Assembly: GCA_017533915.1 (NCBI GenBank)
Contig: JAFWHX010000017.1
Location: 62,001-126,000 of the forward strand
DNA from: Eubacterium sp.
Lineage (GTDB): Bacteria > Bacillota > Clostridia > Peptostreptococcales > Anaerovoracaceae
Reading direction: 5' to 3'
DNA: 64,000 bases
Of this stretch, positions 1-64,000 are shown piece by piece. Below the pieces are notes generated by a model. It was not told where the DNA came from. It did no database searches and saw only the letters and a program-made list of their open reading frames with translations. The position numbers and the translations under genes were made by a program. The stretch's first letter is position 1. Each line of letters begins with the position of its first letter.

Positions 1-3000
1 AGATGTACGGCGGGACTTCCGCCTATCGTAAGGAATGCGGTAGTTCAGGACAGTATCACGCTTGAAGACGGTGCATGCATCATCAAAGTCATCGGCGGTG
101 TTTCGCTGGACGAGGTCAATAGAGTATTTGCAGCCAGGATAAAAGACAAGCTGCATGAGAAGTTCGGCATGGATTATGATGTCAGGTTCGAGCACGATCA
201 TGAAGCGAGAGATGAGATAAAGAAGCATATCGAGCTCTCTAATGAAGAGCTCGCCAAGATAGCTGAGGAAGACGCTGCGAAAGCTGAAGCCGAGAGAGCA
301 GATCTGCCGGATCCGGGATATACAGGCCGCCGATATGGCGGTGGCTTTGACGGCGGAGAGAGCGCTGGAGGAAACGCCGGTGCGGCAAATGGAGGCTTTG
401 ATGGCGGCACCGGAAAGGGCGGAGCAGCAGGGAAAAGCGCAAATGCCGGTGGAGAATCCGGTGGATATGGAGCCGGCGGCGGAAGAAGGCGTGGAACCAG
501 GAATATATTCGGCGGAAAGATCACAGGCGCGCGTACCGCTATAAACGACCTCAGACCGGATATGGGCGAAGTCGTGATCGAGGGAACGATATTCCACATA
601 GAGACACGGCCGATAAGAGAAGACCGGCTGCTCGTAATGATGCACATAACCGACAAGACAAATTCGACATGCGTCAAAGCTTTCCTCAAGAATGAGCAGT
701 GGGAGAAGGACGGAAGCGCAGTGAAGGAAGGCGTGTACGTCATCTGCCGTGGAAAGACAGAATTCAACGTTTTTGATAATGAGATGGACGTGCTGCTCTC
801 ACAGCTTCAGGTGAGCACTATGCCGATGAGAGAAGACACGTACGACGGCCCGCACCGGGTAGAACTTCACTGCCATACCAAGATGAGCGCGATGGATGGC
901 CTGAACGAGCCCGACAAGATCGTGGAGACAGCTGCGAGATGGGGGCAGCCTGCAGTGGCTATAACAGACCACGGAGTTGTCCAGAGCTTCCCGGACGCGG
1001 CGAACACAGCTAAGAAACTGATAAAGAACGGCACCGACATAAAAGTCATCTACGGCATGGAAGGATATCTTCTCCCGGACGAAGAGATCATTAGGGAAAA
1101 CGGGATGACCGAGCCGAGCCTGATAAAAGAAGACGGTACGATAGACTACAAAGCCCGCCCGACGAACCACATCATCATCCTTGTCGCCACGCAGGAAGGA
1201 ATGATGAATCTCTATAAGCTCGTATCAATATCGCACCTGGATTATTTCTATAAAAAGCCTCGTATACCGCGTTCGGTACTGGAAAAGTATCGTAAAGGAC
1301 TTATCCTTGGTTCTGCATGTGAGGCAGGAGAACTGTTCCGGGCAGTAGAGGCAGGGGCTTCAGACGAGGAATTGGAACGGATCGCGGCATATTACGATTA
1401 TCTCGAGATACAGCCTGTTGTTAACAATAAGTTTCTTATCGAAAACGGCACAGCGAATGGGAATGAGGACCTTCAGAATTTCAACAGAAGGATAGTTGAG
1501 CTCGCTGACCGTATGGGAAAGCCTATCGTGGCGACGACAGACGCTCATTATGATGAGCCTGAGTCGGCGATATACAGAAATATCCTGCTTGCCGGCATGG
1601 GTTTCAAGGACGCAGCGAACGGACGCGGCCTGTATCTCAGGACGACGCAGGAGATGCTTGATGAGTTTGCTTATCTTGGCGAAGAAACAGCAAAGCGCGT
1701 AGTGATAGACAATACGATTTTGATCGCGGATATGATAGACGAAGGCATCAAGCCTGTGCCTGACGAGAAGTGCCCGCCGAGAATAAAAGGAGCAGAAGAG
1801 ACGCTCCGTACGACATGCATGGAGCGTGCTCACGAGATCTACGGAGACCCGCTGCCGGAAGAGATCGGCAGCCGGCTTGAGACAGAGTTAAATGCGATCA
1901 TCAACAATGGATACGCAGTCATGTACGTATCTGCTCAGATGCTCGTGCACAAATCGCTTTCTGACGGATATCTGGTAGGCTCCAGAGGATCTGTGGGGTC
2001 TTCATTCGCAGCGACGATGGCTGGGATCACCGAGGTCAACCCGCTAGATCCGCACTATATCTGCCCGAAATGCAAACACCTGGAATGGGGCGACATGCAG
2101 AAGTACGACTGCGGTGTCGACATGCCGCCGAAGGTATGTCCTGAGTGCGGGACAGAAATGCGGCGCGACGGATTCACGATCCCGTTTGCGACATTCCTCG
2201 GTTTCGAGGGAAACAAAGAACCTGATATCGACCTCAATTTCGCGGGTGAGTACCAGGGACGCGCACACAAGTACGTCGGCGAGATTTTCGGTGAAAAGAA
2301 CGTCTACAAAGCCGGTACTGTCGGAACGATCGCAGACAAGACCGCTTACGGCTATGTGATGAAGTTCTTTGAAGAGACAGGACGGCCTCTGAATAAGTAT
2401 GAGGCAGGGCGTCTGGCGATCGGCTGTACCGGTGTAAAAAGGACGACAGGCCAGCACCCGGGCGGCATAATCATCGTTCCGGACGACCATCAGATCTACG
2501 AGTTCTGTCCTATACAGCATCCGGCAAACGATACGACGACAGACATCGTGACGACGCACTTCGATTATCATAAGATCGATAAAAACCTTCTCAAGCTTGA
2601 TATCCTCGGACACAATGTACCGTCAATGATACGACAGCTTCAGGATATGACGGGAGTCGACCCGCTGAAAGTCGACCTGACCGATAAAAAAGTGCTCTCG
2701 ATCTTTAACGGGATCGAAGCGCTCGACATAAAGATGGAAGACTACAAGTTCACACACGGTTCATATGCGATACCGGAATTCGGGACTTCGTTCGTGCGCC
2801 AGATGCTCGACGACGTCAAGCCGTCAAGATTCGAAGACCTGATCCGTATGTCGGGATTCTCGCATGGTACCGACGTGTGGCTGAACAATGCCCAGGATTA
2901 CATCCGTGACGGAGTCGCTACGATGCGTGAAGTCATCTCGACGCGTGACGATATCATGAACTTCTGCATGCTGAAAGGAATACAGAACGAGAAGTCGTTC

Positions 3001-3648
3001 CAGATCATGGAGGATGTACGTAAGAAGAATCGTGTGCTCACAGAAGACGACATCAAAGTCATGAAAGAGCACAACATACCGGACTGGTACATCGACTCGT
3101 GCTCAAAGATCAAATACATGTTCCCGCGTGCTCATGCTGTGGCTTACGTAATGATGTCGTTCCGCCTCGCATGGTACAAAGTATATTATCCGGTCGAATT
3201 CTACGCGACCTACTTCACGAGCGTTGCAGCAGACTTCAACGCAGACGTTGCCCTACGCGGACCACAGGCTTGCCTGGACAGGATGGATCAGATAAAGCAG
3301 AAGGGTACCAACGTTACCGCAAAAGAAAAAGAAGAGATGCTCGTGCTCGAAGTCGTATATGAGATGTACGCCCGCGGCTACGAGTTCGCGCCAGCTCGCA
3401 TCGGTGAGTCGATGGCGACGAAATTCTGGAAAAAAGACGGAAAGGTCCTGCTCCCGTTCTCGGCATACAATGGAGTCGGTGAGTCATGCGCCAAATCGAT
3501 ATACGACGCATACACCGAGAAGCCATTCGACACTATCGAGGACGCCGTGAATCGCGCCGGTATCAACAAAGCCGCCTGCGACACGCTCCGCGAACACGGT
3601 GTGTTCGGCGATCTGCCGGAAAGAGATCAGCTGAGCTGGGCATTCTAA
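1..3648 (+). CDS. polC: DNA polymerase III PolC-type alpha subunit, 5'-truncated by window edge, no exonuclease insert
   Basis: Replicative DNA polymerase of Gram-positive bacteria. The frame is open from base 1, so the true start lies upstream. Order of parts: the end of the N-terminal domain (to about 230), a Gly-rich linker (about 320-500), an OB fold (about 540-830), the PHP domain beginning at ELHCHTKMSAMDG (about 860), a Cys-rich zinc site (YICPKC near 2060 and VCPECG near 2135), the catalytic motif PDIDLNFAGEYQ (about 2221) and the third acidic motif KLDILGH (about 2595). The C-terminus, GDLPERDQLSWAF, is typical of PolC. PolC normally carries a DEDD 3'-5' exonuclease of roughly 170-200 residues inside the PHP domain, opening with FDxETTG. 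Here YGMEGY (about 1052) is followed only about 25 residues later by YKARPTNHIII (about 1147), and no such motif is present. Identity is certain; loss of proofreading is inferred. Confidence 0.97.
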   Translation, partial: RCTAGLPPIVRNAVVQDSITLEDGACIIKVIGGVSLDEVNRVFAARIKDKLHEKFGMDYDVRFEHDHEARDEIKKHIELSNEELAKIAEEDAAKAEAERADLPDPGYTGRRYGGGFDGGESAGGNAGAANGGFDGGTGKGGAAGKSANAGGESGGYGAGGGRRRGTRNIFGGKITGARTAINDLRPDMGEVVIEGTIFHIETRPIREDRLLVMMHITDKTNSTCVKAFLKNEQWEKDGSAVKEGVYVICRGKTEFNVFDNEMDVLLSQLQVSTMPMREDTYDGPHRVELHCHTKMSAMDGLNEPDKIVETAARWGQPAVAITDHGVVQSFPDAANTAKKLIKNGTDIKVIYGMEGYLLPDEEIIRENGMTEPSLIKEDGTIDYKARPTNHIIILVATQEGMMNLYKLVSISHLDYFYKKPRIPRSVLEKYRKGLILGSACEAGELFRAVEAGASDEELERIAAYYDYLEIQPVVNNKFLIENGTANGNEDLQNFNRRIVELADRMGKPIVATTDAHYDEPESAIYRNILLAGMGFKDAANGRGLYLRTTQEMLDEFAYLGEETAKRVVIDNTILIADMIDEGIKPVPDEKCPPRIKGAEETLRTTCMERAHEIYGDPLPEEIGSRLETELNAIINNGYAVMYVSAQMLVHKSLSDGYLVGSRGSVGSSFAATMAGITEVNPLDPHYICPKCKHLEWGDMQKYDCGVDMPPKVCPECGTEMRRDGFTIPFATFLGFEGNKEPDIDLNFAGEYQGRAHKYVGEIFGEKNVYKAGTVGTIADKTAYGYVMKFFEETGRPLNKYEAGRLAIGCTGVKRTTGQHPGGIIIVPDDHQIYEFCPIQHPANDTTTDIVTTHFDYHKIDKNLLKLDILGHNVPSMIRQLQDMTGVDPLKVDLTDKKVLSIFNGIEALDIKMEDYKFTHGSYAIPEFGTSFVRQMLDDVKPSRFEDLIRMSGFSHGTDVWLNNAQDYIRDGVATMREVISTRDDIMNFCMLKGIQNEKSFQIMEDVRKKNRVLTEDDIKVMKEHNIPDWYIDSCSKIKYMFPRAHAVAYVMMSFRLAWYKVYYPVEFYATYFTSVAADFNADVALRGPQACLDRMDQIKQKGTNVTAKEKEEMLVLEVVYEMYARGYEFAPARIGESMATKFWKKDGKVLLPFSAYNGVGESCAKSIYDAYTEKPFDTIEDAVNRAGINKAACDTLREHGVFGDLPERDQLSWAF

Positions 3649-59242: not shown

Positions 59243-60007
59243 ATGAGTATCAGGAGAATGATCGCTGCACTGGTGTTTACGGTTGCTTTGATGGCTGTCA
59301 TGGCGCCTGCGTCTGTGTTCGCTGAGAAACATGCAGGTACGATGGATGATCCGATCCCGATGACGCTGGGCGAATATTATAATGCGTTTATTAATGAACC
59401 AAATCAGGAGGTCGTCTTCGAATGGAAAGTGCCGGATAATATCGATTCCGGGAAAAATCTTTATTTCGAATCGATCTCTTCTCCGGCACTTCCGTCGAAT
59501 ATAGAGAGGCAGGGACTGATCTTCTATGGGGAAGGCCAGTATTACAACCAGTATTATGACGGAGAATCAGCCAAGCCGGATTTCCTTTTCTCATGGAATA
59601 TAAATGACGAGGTAAGGACATATCTGATCAAGGTGAGATTTAAAGACGAGAGAGATACCGGGGTCTTTGAGGTGCAGCTCAGGGACACGCCGAGCCGCTT
59701 TGGTACTGACTATAACAAAGTGCGTAAGCCTACAGATGTCAAAGCTGTCGCCGGCAAGAGGTCGATGACGGTGACATGGAAGTCGGCAGGCTGCTCTGAC
59801 TTCAAGTACAAAGTCACATACAGCGCTAAGGGCGTCAAAGCCAAGACTGTCACAGTCAAGGTAGATGAGAATAATTATCACAGTCCGTCAGTCAAGATCA
59901 AGAATCTCAAGAAGGGCAAGAAATACACAGTAAAGGTCCAGGCGATCACATATGATGGTTATAAGAGTGACTGGAGCAAGAAGGTGACGTCCGGGAAGAT
60001 CAAATAG
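59243..60007 (+). CDS. Small secreted protein with Lys-rich Fn3-like C-terminus
   Basis: A 254-residue exported protein. Signal peptide MSIRRMIAALVFTVALMAVM, cleavage near VFA-EKH. The middle (about 35-155) is a beta-rich, aromatic domain (VFEWKVPDNIDSGKNLYFES, FYGEGQYYNQYY) of unknown fold. The last about 90 residues form an Fn3-like module, Lys-rich (KPTDVKAVAGKRSMTVTWKS and KIKNLKKGKKYTVKVQAITY). The frame extends to 59159 through A+T-rich repeats, but AAAGGAGG directly precedes the ATG at 59243. It resembles the C-termini of the larger secreted proteins at 36-52 kb and may share their location at the wall. Confidence 0.82.
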   Translation: MSIRRMIAALVFTVALMAVMAPASVFAEKHAGTMDDPIPMTLGEYYNAFINEPNQEVVFEWKVPDNIDSGKNLYFESISSPALPSNIERQGLIFYGEGQYYNQYYDGESAKPDFLFSWNINDEVRTYLIKVRFKDERDTGVFEVQLRDTPSRFGTDYNKVRKPTDVKAVAGKRSMTVTWKSAGCSDFKYKVTYSAKGVKAKTVTVKVDENNYHSPSVKIKNLKKGKKYTVKVQAITYDGYKSDWSKKVTSGKIK

Positions 60008-60070
60008 AGGCTGTGTAAAGAATAGTATTTATTAATGCAAGCTGCGATAATATATGCTTAGCAGGCCAGC

Positions 60071-60115
60071 AAGGGACAGGTGTCAGCCGGTAAGACCGGA
60101 GGGCGCCTGTCCTTT
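60071..60115 (+). terminator. Probable terminator after the small secreted protein gene
   Basis: AAGGGACAGGTG pairs with CGCCTGTCCTTT, with an inner CCGG/CCGG stem. The T tract is short. The gap 60008-60304 has no gene. Confidence 0.65.
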
Positions 60116-60183
60116 GCTTGATTATGAAGACATCTGCCATTGATATGAGCATGCTCAATGCGGAGTGCGGCAGGCTATAAGTA

Positions 60184-60212
60184 TTGCCTTTTACTACATA
60201 ATATGCTAAATT
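60184..60212 (+). promoter_or_regulatory. Possible promoter of the polysaccharide locus
   Basis: TTGCCT (60184-60189), 17-bp spacer, TAAATT (60207-60212) with a TG extended -10. Both boxes match at only four of six positions. Confidence 0.4.
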
Positions 60213-60304
60213 ATGAACAGGAAATGAAAGTGTGGCGGATGGTCACATTTACGGTTTTGTATTAGATTTTTTTGCTGATCTGTAGATAATAAGAGGAATA
60301 TGAA

Positions 60305-61672
60305 ATGAGCTCCAGGAGCCGTATGTTTCATGATCTAACGATAAGAGCCATAAAGCTTTTGAATATCGTATTAATGATTATACCATTTGTATTCGTATGG
60401 TATACATTTTATGCTGATAAGCTATGGGTCATCTTTTACATGCGCGGCCATTGGATGGTAATCGCACTATATGCTCTGCTATATGTATTTATAGGCAGGC
60501 TGTATGATGCATTCAATATGTCATACTACAGCCGTGGCGAGATGATCTACAGTCAGCTGCTTTCGCTTTCTGAAGTTAACGTAATTATATATATTGTAGC
60601 CTGGCTGTTGATCAGACATATGCCAGCTGTACTCCCTATGTTGGGATTAATGGCTGTTCAGATCGTGATTGCTGTTATATGGGCTTATTGTTCTCAAGCT
60701 TGGTATTACTATACATTTCCGGCTAATAAGACGGTTGTGGTATATGACATAAAACGTGGAATAGCGGGACTTATTGAGAAATATAATCTGGCGAAGAAAT
60801 TCAAAGTAGTGGCAACAATTTCAGCTGATGAATGCATTAAAGATCTATCGGTATTAGATGATGCGGATACAGTTTTCCTTGTTGGGGTTCATAGTCACGA
60901 CAGGAATACAGTTACAAAGCATTGCCTGATGCATAACATAAAAGCTTTTTTGATTCCACATATCGGAGACTTGATTTTAACAGGCTCAAAACGTGTTCAT
61001 ATGTTCCACTTGCTGCTATTGAAGGTAGAAAGATATAATCCATCGTTTGAATATCTGGTTATAAAAAGAATAGGTGATATCGTCTTATCATTGATAGCTG
61101 TTATTCTTTTTTCACCAGTTATGTTGGTCACAGCTATCTGTATAAAGATGGAAGATCATGGTCCGGTACTATATAAACAATGCCGGTTAACGAAGGACGG
61201 TAAAAAGTTTGAAATATATAAGTTCCGCAGCATGAAGCCTGATGCAGAGAAAGATGGAGTTGCCAGATTATCAACTGGGGATAGTGATGATCGAATAACA
61301 AAGGTTGGTCGTTTTATTCGCAGGGTAAGAATTGATGAGATTCCTCAGCTATTTAACATAATTAAGGGCGATATTTCGATAGTTGGACCTCGTGCGGAGA
61401 GACCGGAACTTGCAGAGAAATATCAAAAAGAATTACCAGAGTTTGTGTTAAGACTGCAGGTAAAAGCAGGACTTACGGGATATGCCCAGGTATATGGTAA
61501 ATATAACACCACACCATATGACAAATTGATCATGGACTTAATGTATATTGCGAATGCGAGCATATTTGAAGATATCAGGATCATTTTTGCAACTATAAAG
61601 ATTTTATTCATGCCGGACAGTACAGAGGGAGTAGCTTCTGTGCAAGCATCTGAAGGGGATAGTGATGAGTAA
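60305..61672 (+). CDS. Polyprenyl glycosylphosphotransferase (undecaprenyl-phosphate sugar transferase)
   Basis: A 455-residue membrane enzyme that starts a surface polysaccharide by placing sugar-1-phosphate on the lipid carrier. The N-terminal half has about four membrane helices. Next is a Rossmann-like region (about 140-240). The C-terminal catalytic domain, with a re-entrant helix (VIKRIGDIVLSLIAVILFSP), then LYKQCRLTKDGKKFEIYKFR, RRVRIDEIPQLFNIIKGD and VGPRAERPE, is of the WcaJ/PglC type. GAGGA precedes the ATG. Its base composition is more A+T-rich than upstream genes, a sign that the locus may be mobile. It overlaps the next gene by eight bases. Confidence 0.95.
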   Translation: MSSRSRMFHDLTIRAIKLLNIVLMIIPFVFVWYTFYADKLWVIFYMRGHWMVIALYALLYVFIGRLYDAFNMSYYSRGEMIYSQLLSLSEVNVIIYIVAWLLIRHMPAVLPMLGLMAVQIVIAVIWAYCSQAWYYYTFPANKTVVVYDIKRGIAGLIEKYNLAKKFKVVATISADECIKDLSVLDDADTVFLVGVHSHDRNTVTKHCLMHNIKAFLIPHIGDLILTGSKRVHMFHLLLLKVERYNPSFEYLVIKRIGDIVLSLIAVILFSPVMLVTAICIKMEDHGPVLYKQCRLTKDGKKFEIYKFRSMKPDAEKDGVARLSTGDSDDRITKVGRFIRRVRIDEIPQLFNIIKGDISIVGPRAERPELAEKYQKELPEFVLRLQVKAGLTGYAQVYGKYNTTPYDKLIMDLMYIANASIFEDIRIIFATIKILFMPDSTEGVASVQASEGDSDE

Positions 61673-62777
61673 GATCCTTTATGTGGCAACAGTAGTCAAA
61701 AATCATATCATGGAATTCCACGTACCATATTTAAAAATGTTAAAAGAGATGGGGTGGGAGACAGCAGTAGCAGCGAAAAATGATTATGATAATAAAGGAG
61801 AGTGTGTAATTCCATATTGTGATACATTTTATGACATTCCATTTGAAAGAAACCCATTCAGATTTGACAATATAAAAGCATATAAAGAACTCAAACAGAT
61901 CATAGACAAGGGAGAATACGATATAATCCATTGTCATACTCCGGTTGGGGCTTTGATTACGCGTCTGGCAGCTCAAGATGCCAGAAAGAAAGGAACCAGG
62001 GTTTTTTATACAGCTCACGGATTTCATTTTTATAAAGGCGCTCCTTTAATTAACTGGATCGTGTATTATTCAGCAGAAAAATATCTTGCGCGTAAGACAG
62101 ATGTCCTTATAACTATTACCAAAGAAGATTATCAGCGTGCTAAAAAGTTTAATGCAAAGCATGTTGAATACATCCCTGGCGTTGGCATTGATTTGAATCA
62201 TTATAAGAGAGATAACCTTGAGCTGGCAAAACAGCTCAAATCAGATCTTGGAATACCGGCATCTGCGACAGTGCTTCTTTCGGTTGGTGAAGTTAATGCT
62301 AATAAAAACCATAAACTGATTATACAAGCTTTACAGGACTTCCCGGACGCATGGTTTGTTTTGTGCGGTCAAGGTCCACTTATTCAAGAATACAGAAAAC
62401 TTGCAGATGATCTTGGAGTAGGCGATCGTGTCATTATGACAGGATACCGTACAGATGTCATAAACTTCTATCGTATGGCAGATATCTTTATTCTTCCTTC
62501 ATTGAGAGAGGGACTGCCTGTCGCCCTGATGGAAGCAATGAGTATGGGATTAGTCTGCGTCGCCTCTAGAAACAGAGGAACTGACGAATTGCTTAGAGGA
62601 AGCAGATTGCTGTTTTCCGCTACATCCGTCAAGGAACTGAAAGAAAAACTGATGATAGCAATGAAGGAAGACTGTTCTGATGAGGTAAAACGGAACAGTC
62701 TTCATTTAAAAGACTTTGATCTTTCAAATACGCTTAAATCAATGAAAACATTATATCAACAAGAAGTACTTCATTGA
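61665..62777 (+). CDS. Glycosyltransferase family 4 protein
   Basis: A 370-residue GT-B enzyme that adds a sugar to the growing lipid-linked oligosaccharide in the cytoplasm. N-terminal acceptor domain: MSKILYVATVVKNHIMEFHV, DIIHCHTPVGALITRLAA and YTAHGFHFYKGAPL. C-terminal donor domain: LLSVGEVNANKNHKLIIQAL, VIMTGYRTDVINFYRMADIF and the E-x7-E motif in LREGLPVALMEAMSMGL. Both an overlapping GTG (61662) and ATG (61665) are possible; the ATG is preferred, with GGGG upstream. Donor and acceptor sugars are unknown. Translationally coupled to the sugar transferase. Confidence 0.94.
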   Translation: MSKILYVATVVKNHIMEFHVPYLKMLKEMGWETAVAAKNDYDNKGECVIPYCDTFYDIPFERNPFRFDNIKAYKELKQIIDKGEYDIIHCHTPVGALITRLAAQDARKKGTRVFYTAHGFHFYKGAPLINWIVYYSAEKYLARKTDVLITITKEDYQRAKKFNAKHVEYIPGVGIDLNHYKRDNLELAKQLKSDLGIPASATVLLSVGEVNANKNHKLIIQALQDFPDAWFVLCGQGPLIQEYRKLADDLGVGDRVIMTGYRTDVINFYRMADIFILPSLREGLPVALMEAMSMGLVCVASRNRGTDELLRGSRLLFSATSVKELKEKLMIAMKEDCSDEVKRNSLHLKDFDLSNTLKSMKTLYQQEVLH

Positions 62778-62798
62778 TATATGGTTTAGGAGGTATTG

Positions 62799-63986
62799 AT
62801 GAATAAGGTATCATACATACTGAAATCATCTCGCTTTTTATATGGTGTTTATTACTATGTAATGTCTGCTCTTTTAAGGCTGTTAGGTGTATTTGTTGGA
62901 CAGGATGATAAAATGATTCTTTTCAACAGTTATGGTGGAAAGAAATATAATGATAGTCCTAAAGAGATATATGAGTATATGCTCTCAGATCATCGGTTTG
63001 ATGGATACAAATTTGTATGGGCGGTACAAGAGCCGGATAAAGAATCAGTGCCTGGTAGGGCTTTGATCATAAAGACTGATAGCTTCCGGTATTTTGTAAC
63101 TGCTTTGAGGGCGAAAATGTGGGTAACTAATTCTTCGATGGAAAGAGGGCTTGATTTCAAAAAAAAGGGGACTGTATGTTTTAATACATGGCATGGAACT
63201 CCAATTAAGTCGATGGGAATAGATATCAATGACGGGAATCAATCGTTTAAGAGCAAATCGTTAGTCAGAGCAGATATTATGCTGGCACAGAGCCAATATG
63301 ATATTATCGTTTTTACTCATGCATTTAAACTGCCGCAATCGGTTTTCAAGATGATTGGATTACCGAGAAATGATAACCTTTTAAAATATAAGGAAAATGA
63401 TATATGCAGGATACGAAAAGATCTGGGAATTACTGAAAACAAGACTGTAATATTGTATGCACCAACTTTTCGTGAATATACGAAGGGAAAGAGCAAGGAA
63501 GTTATTCTGGATATTCCTATTGATTGTAAATATTGGCAGGAAGTTCTTGGCGAAAAATTCATCGTGTTGTTCAGAGCTCATTACGAAGCTGCGGAACATG
63601 TAGATGTAAGTAAGTATCCATTATTCATTGATGTTTCAGATTATCAGAACTTAAGTGACCTGATAATTGCGTCAGATGCGTTGATTTCAGATTATTCGAG
63701 TGTTTTTTTTGATTATTCGATCACACATAAGCCAATGTTTTGTTTTGCTTATGATTATGATGAATACCTTCATAAAAGGGGAATGTACCTTGATCTTGAA
63801 ACAGAAATGCCATTTATCGTTCACAGAGATGAGGCCACATTGATAAATGAATTACGGATAATGCATGAGCATTATGAATCATTTTGTGAAAAAACAACTG
63901 CATTTCAAGAAAAATATGTTACAGTATATGGTCAAGCAACTGAAAGAAGCTGTGATCTTATTTCAGATGTGCTAAGTAAGGGCTGA
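62799..63986 (+). CDS. CDP-glycerol glycerophosphotransferase family protein
   Basis: A 395-residue TagB/TagF-like enzyme, which transfers glycerol phosphate (or ribitol phosphate) in teichoic-acid-like polymer synthesis. Motifs: ILFNSYGGKKYNDSPKEIYE, CFNTWHGTPIKSMGID (about 126-141), YAPTFREY (about 213-220), FRAHYEAAEH and the catalytic-region SDYSSVFFDY (about 306-315). The N-terminal amphipathic helix (about 5-30) probably associates with the membrane. The ATG at 62799 is at good distance from AGGAGG; a TTG at 62796 is too close. This is an A+T-rich gene and the last in the window; the locus is expected to continue. Confidence 0.93.
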   Translation: MNKVSYILKSSRFLYGVYYYVMSALLRLLGVFVGQDDKMILFNSYGGKKYNDSPKEIYEYMLSDHRFDGYKFVWAVQEPDKESVPGRALIIKTDSFRYFVTALRAKMWVTNSSMERGLDFKKKGTVCFNTWHGTPIKSMGIDINDGNQSFKSKSLVRADIMLAQSQYDIIVFTHAFKLPQSVFKMIGLPRNDNLLKYKENDICRIRKDLGITENKTVILYAPTFREYTKGKSKEVILDIPIDCKYWQEVLGEKFIVLFRAHYEAAEHVDVSKYPLFIDVSDYQNLSDLIIASDALISDYSSVFFDYSITHKPMFCFAYDYDEYLHKRGMYLDLETEMPFIVHRDEATLINELRIMHEHYESFCEKTTAFQEKYVTVYGQATERSCDLISDVLSKG

Positions 63987-64000
63987 ATTGTATATTTCAA

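Follow-up and report, generated by a model that had tools for sequence, protein, structure and literature searches.

How a PolC polymerase could correct its errors without an exonuclease of the usual kind is the question raised by the first gene of a 64,000-nucleotide stretch of Eubacterium sp. (contig JAFWHX010000017.1, positions 62,001 to 126,000), hereafter called the window. PolC is usually described with its own built-in DEDDh editor, the exonuclease domain here abbreviated Exo. The polC open reading frame (ORF) covers window positions 1–3648 on the forward strand with its left end open, and its genomic start is at G000:C6:61716 (L004:9716), so that the whole protein of 1310 amino acids (aa) includes 95 residues left of the window. 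This is the sole polC found in the genome, which belongs to a clostridium close to Eubacterium pyruvativorans, and its product is, judged from the sequence, a clostridial PolC-type DNA polymerase III alpha subunit of the variant without Exo (exo-less), paired with a DnaE1-type subunit.

The initial annotation had described the two halves of the PHP domain as joined by about 25 residues and the exonuclease as missing, and both statements hold. The motif YGMEGY occupies residues 446–451 (window 1051–1068), YKARPTNH begins at residue 478 (window 1147), and the junction loop between them, located from the sequence and by comparison of PolC rows, has 26 residues (window 1069–1146, forward strand) at the site of the DEDDh exonuclease in canonical PolC; no exonuclease family was found in Pfam at E≤1. 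Counted from E449 (included) to H485 the distance is 36 in this protein, 17–58 in rows without Exo, 205–238 in rows with Exo, and 151–348 in six PolC rows with a non-canonical insert. The other parts of the enzyme, which the annotation had taken to be intact, were matched as PHP, polymerase, finger and helix-hairpin-helix regions. No exonuclease was found upstream in the same protein, whose first 95 residues lie outside the window, and no second complete polC was found in the genome (2.19 Mb in 21 contigs, 96.94% complete), these being the two cases that the annotation had named as evidence to the contrary. That Exo had become a separate gene nearby was considered and rejected, since PF00929 matches no further protein of the genome over its cut-off. 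Since a canonical PolC carries the DEDDh exonuclease within its PHP domain and the window PolC does not, it is filed as an exo-less variant. An assembly error is unlikely, because the same short junction is present in all four loci from named genome records (L012–L015, from E. pyruvativorans and three metagenome-assembled or uncultured records), which are all exo-less, and because the exo-less pattern is found in at least 74 of 119 genomes of the family; at least 12 have Exo and in 33, unclassified, PolC is fragmentary or not among the matches listed, the counts of 74 and 12 being taken from positions of hidden Markov model (HMM) matches, by which a decayed Exo would also count as exo-less. 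In the family loci that were actually read (L004, L012–L045, L129 and L130) the two PHP motifs are 131–150 residues apart without Exo, compared to 323–328 in the seven Exo rows with both motifs.

In some C-family polymerases the PHP domain is itself a proofreading nuclease, and the ligand set HHDHEH[C/H]DH is counted as an active PHP exonuclease (PMC12926913). The window PolC keeps all nine metal ligands in the pattern HHDHEHCDH, identified by alignment as H385 (868–870), H387 (874–876), D394 (895–897), H419 (970–972), E449 (1060–1062), H485 (1168–1170), C535 (1318–1320), D609 (1540–1542) and H611 (1546–1548), all on the forward strand. The position of D609 is occupied by Asn in the solved PolCs 3f2b and 9qpc; it aligns with D226 of Mycobacterium tuberculosis DnaE1 (7pu7 row), where the change D226N abolishes the exonuclease, and the Geobacillus kaustophilus PolC, with one PHP residue changed, is reported to show no exonuclease activity (PMC5636811). 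Exo of PolC is placed within a loop next to the PHP site, and the loop has 29 residues in M. tuberculosis and 18 in Taq (PMC5636811); in the window PolC it is short again. The predicted PHP model, of middling confidence with a mean pLDDT (predicted local distance difference test) of 65.5, best matches PHP domains of PolC and DNA polymerase III, and the identity to 3f2b is 42% over the aligned part. Next to D609, a glycine at residue 608 is present in 25 of 57 Exo rows vs 2 of 39 exo-less rows, and residues 684, 1219 and 612 were tested likewise, but no substitution recurred significantly with the loss of Exo over five independent tree pairs on well-supported branches.

We consider it likely, from the conserved ligands, that the window PolC edits with its own PHP site. 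An Exo-bearing ancestor would have lost Exo through removal of the insert, and the PHP site may then have taken over proofreading. When the primer end is mispaired, it would move from the polymerase site to the zinc-type PHP centre, which would trim it before it goes back to be extended, with the junction loop bordering the PHP centre as the matching loop does in M. tuberculosis DnaE1. The DnaE present in the cell would use its PHP site to proofread what it synthesises, and mismatch repair of the MutS type would act behind both polymerases. The initial annotation had offered a separate exonuclease or no proofreading at all, which is incomplete: a dedicated DnaQ was searched for with profiles and not found in this genome, 96.94% complete as it is, but the PHP domain with its nine ligands was left out as a proofreader.

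The alpha subunits found in the genome are this PolC and one DnaE-type polymerase, nothing else. The PHP ligands of the latter read, by eye, HHDHEHCDH, and this complete set together with the lineage points to DnaE1 and not DnaE3 as the partner. Over the cut-off of PF00929 there is one RNase_T protein of 192 aa (60.7 bits), encoded at L009:8796–9374, that is most similar to KapD among the NCBIfam models. The only other protein met in the search for a free DnaQ was a distant RNase_H_2 protein, which we take to be a YprB relative. The DEDDy exonuclease model gives 14.3 bits on PolA, under its cut-off of 23.6, which suggests a degenerate exonuclease site, and the genome has genes of the MutS family (283.8 and 118.9 bits).

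Among the relatives, an Exo-profile match outside PolC (E≤0.001) occurs in 21 of the 74 exo-less and 5 of the 12 Exo-bearing genomes of the family, and therefore no general replacement in trans is visible. Of 50 exo-less family genomes of good quality, 35 are without an Exo-profile match; in all but one of the 35 (34 genomes, of which two are single-contig assemblies) PF00929 has no match either (E≤0.001), in a search whose control was positive in 10 of 14 known genomes. Both congeners searched belong to the 34 genomes without an RNase_T match. Stand-alone DnaQ homologues number more than three per proteome on average (PMC12926913).

The class was examined in 147 genomes of at least 90% completeness, and 136 of them have a PolC match over the cut-off. 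The exo-less HMM pattern, meaning an Exo that is absent or decayed, is found in at least 27 genomes of ten families (f1, f7, f11, f13, f22, f35, f38, f46, f47 and f50); 20 of the 27 lack an Exo-profile match at E≤1e-10, and seven have one, over 100 bits in five. Free PolC-like Exo ORFs of 206–328 aa and 133–172 bits are located at G122:C20, G126:C109, G158:C47 and G197:C28. A PolC tree of 102 rows, calculated from the region that follows the junction, needs seven changes between Exo and its absence, at least five of them forced by well-supported branches, although parsimony alone cannot separate loss from regain. The Exo-bearing L018, L025 and L026 of the window's family nest among exo-less rows. 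Together with the decayed forms the tree suggests that Exo was lost repeatedly in Clostridia, both by removal and by decay in place. Family f38 settles the decay in place, because intermediates exist within it: L178 keeps the Exo motifs and the other 14 aligned rows are without the full catalytic set, one genus carries segments of 294–357 residues at the Exo site, and all 30 rows keep the nine PHP ligands. Across L124, L125, L131, L132 and rows L149–L177 (family f38) the Exo in place is decayed and often enlarged, with segments of about 224–357 residues. In family f35, L118 and L119 have at the Exo site an insert of about 150–160 residues that shows no DEDDh motifs and by its length and position is probably a decayed Exo; when profiles of the f38 and f35 inserts were compared with that of Exo, no similarity emerged (probability below 1%). 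Two other arrangements were encountered: in family f6 the near-complete genomes G121, G154, G202 and G224 (0.8–1.1 Mb) have no strong PolC match and an ORF of about 510 aa with a PolC-like Exo domain, and G240 has two full-length PolC genes (G240:C30 and G240:C21, ORFs of 1459 and 1432 aa).

Both editing sites were compared in 161 PolCs, which are those that were fetched, 35 of them from the window's family, and not a random sample. Both sites are canonical in 113; 39 are without Exo and have an intact PHP site, 6 have a non-canonical Exo and an intact PHP site, one is masked in Exo with PHP intact, two have a broken PHP site with a canonical Exo, and none lacks both. Every exo-less PolC read, from several separate branches, has retained the nine ligands. 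The two broken PHP sites (EHDTESGSR and HHADDKGDR, each with a canonical DEDHD Exo) are those of L142 (G217) and L238 (G196) in family f29, and a third f29 PolC, L133, keeps both sites. The counts fit a PolC that needs one editor, either of which will do, and are suggestive only. Taking all lineages together, we lean slightly towards a general picture in which whole clostridial lineages would have two alpha subunits with zinc PHP sites as their only proofreaders. Exo would have been lost several times, by removal or decay, mostly without a free DEDDh substitute, the loop would have gone back to a DnaE1-like length with the PHP site as a working editor, and in one other family the situation would be reversed, with PHP lost and Exo kept, making the two editors interchangeable.

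Several observations weigh against editing by the PHP site. Since PHP losses are few and about 0.6 double losses are expected by chance (our own arithmetic), the absence of a double loss is suggestive only, and since the PHP ligands are intact in 113 of the 115 PolCs with a canonical Exo as well, their conservation in the exo-less ones is no special signal. The metal site might also be kept for stability, because metal-ligand mutants of the M. tuberculosis enzyme are less stable (PMC5636811). Free PolC-like Exo proteins of more than 100 bits are present in the exo-less family genomes G036, G091 and G118 and in the exo-less class genomes G122, G126, G158, G197 and G253, where they could edit in trans. 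The window's own genome encodes the KapD-like DEDDh protein, although both congeners searched are without it, and, being 96.94% complete in 21 contigs, it could miss a gene. That a separate DEDDh exonuclease such as this 192-aa protein proofreads for PolC in trans is nevertheless very improbable. It is the one RNase_T protein over the cut-off and reaches 52.7 bits with the PolC Exo profile, and a free Exo-like protein scoring more than 100 bits occurs in a few exo-less relatives, but the scores of the 192-aa protein stay under the NCBIfam cut-offs (67.1 vs 169 for KapD, 39.9 vs 71.5 for dnaq), it has no match in the two congeners, which are 100% and 99% complete, and a free Exo is not commoner in the exo-less genomes of the family.

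It is also possible, if rather unlikely, that PolC is not the bulk replicase and that the DnaE, with its own PHP site of the composition given above, copies most of the genome, so that PolC has a limited role in which the loss of Exo is tolerated; that PolC is the main replicase of this organism, as the initial annotation had it, is an assumption. The survey of PMC3919608 raises DnaE1 as the bulk replicase in bacteria with PolC and DnaE1, its exo-less PolCs are clostridial only and some clostridia have DnaE1 alone, and 11 of the 147 class genomes are without a PolC match over the cut-off, some merely from a fragmented gene. Against such a minor role, the gene is kept downstream of ispG, the protein aligns with G. 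kaustophilus PolC throughout the polymerase core, and the other 136 genomes do have their PolC match. A PolC without any proofreading, for which polymerase selectivity and mismatch repair suffice and whose lineages mutate faster, appears quite improbable: the MutS-family genes could mend mispairs later and the low DEDDy score of PolA may mean that editing is relaxed in general, but the nine ligands are kept on all the separate exo-less branches that were read. Editing by the PHP site is the reading that we prefer for the window PolC.

The remaining features of the gene, all on the forward strand, are as follows. The coding sequence within the window (1–3648) comprises residues 96–1310 and the stop codon, with the start codon left of the window, and the whole protein scores 1290.8 bits with TIGR01405 (cut-off 1043.45) and 1388.5 with NF001688 (cut-off 873). 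Matches to the NCBIfam models of PolC come in two stretches, with the best one beginning behind the Exo positions (TIGR01405, 370–1209). The N-terminal domain model DNA_pol3_a_NII matches weakly (12.4 bits, cut-off 26.3), and a glycine-rich low-complexity linker (337–483) leads from the N-terminal region to an OB-fold region at residues 284–375 or so (565–840), where the phmmer alignment to 3f2b begins at residue 284 and extends to residue 1307, polymerase core included, and PF01336 gives 17.2 bits (cut-off 27). The first half of the PHP domain comprises residues 378–451 (847–1068; Pfam PHP match 383–563) and the second half, from the Pfam match and structure comparison, residues 478–690 (1147–1785). 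The polymerase core with zinc-ribbon cysteines and the stretches PDIDLNF and KLDILGH follows at residues 691–1222 (1786–3381; 3f2b alignment and Pfam, where pol3_alpha and finger are present at E≤1), and then the helix-hairpin-helix region (3382–3630; HHH_6 34.6 bits at 1223–1305, over the cut-off). The C-terminal QLSWAF (3628–3645), compared among 18 C-termini, resembles the sliding-clamp motif of PolC. The genes upstream of it in the same direction read, from their ORFs, as pyrH, frr, uppS, cdsA, dxr, rseP and ispG, the genes that usually neighbour polC. At the other end of the window, ORFs at 60305–63986 read by eye as a sugar transferase, a glycosyltransferase and a CDP-glycerol-type transferase are probably part of a surface polysaccharide cluster, and the G+C content over 60001–64000 is 37%.

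If editing by PHP alone is true, these PolCs are a natural test of PHP proofreading for PolC, which is a drug target (PMC12592400); such proofreading is beyond the reach of the solved structures 3f2b and 9qpc, because one ligand is changed in them. Exo-less PolC was reported in 2013, and the window PolC is therefore not new in kind. That survey found that 6% of PolCs, and 16% of those in systems with PolC and DnaE1, have no Exo; except for one additional copy in Thermotogae they come from Clostridia and Negativicutes, and the survey used them in asking whether DnaE1 does the bulk synthesis there (PMC3919608). Beyond it, no further work treating exo-less PolC was recognised among the titles and abstracts searched, which cover a part of the literature. 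Like the window PolC, the exo-less PolCs of the survey have no Exo insertion, a conserved PHP metal site and a genome with PolC and DnaE1; the survey counts them, and repeated loss, decayed Exo and absent free DEDDh nucleases are not treated in the available part of its text (PMC3919608). What is added here and not found in that part is the recurrent loss of Exo in two ways, the absence, as a rule, of a substitute acting in trans, and the opposite arrangement in f29.

Of the known structures, the M. tuberculosis DnaE1 PHP-exonuclease (5LEW) resembles the window PolC in its nine-ligand PHP site and the short loop beside it, but is of the DnaE type and has a measured activity where the window PolC has a predicted one. 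The G. kaustophilus PolC 3F2B resembles it in its PolC core, with both PHP halves present and the structure free of Exo, but the N-terminal domain and Exo are missing from the structure and not from the natural protein (PMC3919608), and its PHP domain has Asn at the position of D609, in an enzyme reported without exonuclease activity (PMC5636811). The Exo-bearing PolCs of the same family (L016–L027) have the same PHP ligands and lie near the window PolC on the tree but differ in carrying about 190 inserted residues that contain DEDDh motifs, and such near relatives with and without Exo form a ready contrast for measuring the share of the DEDDh editor in fidelity.
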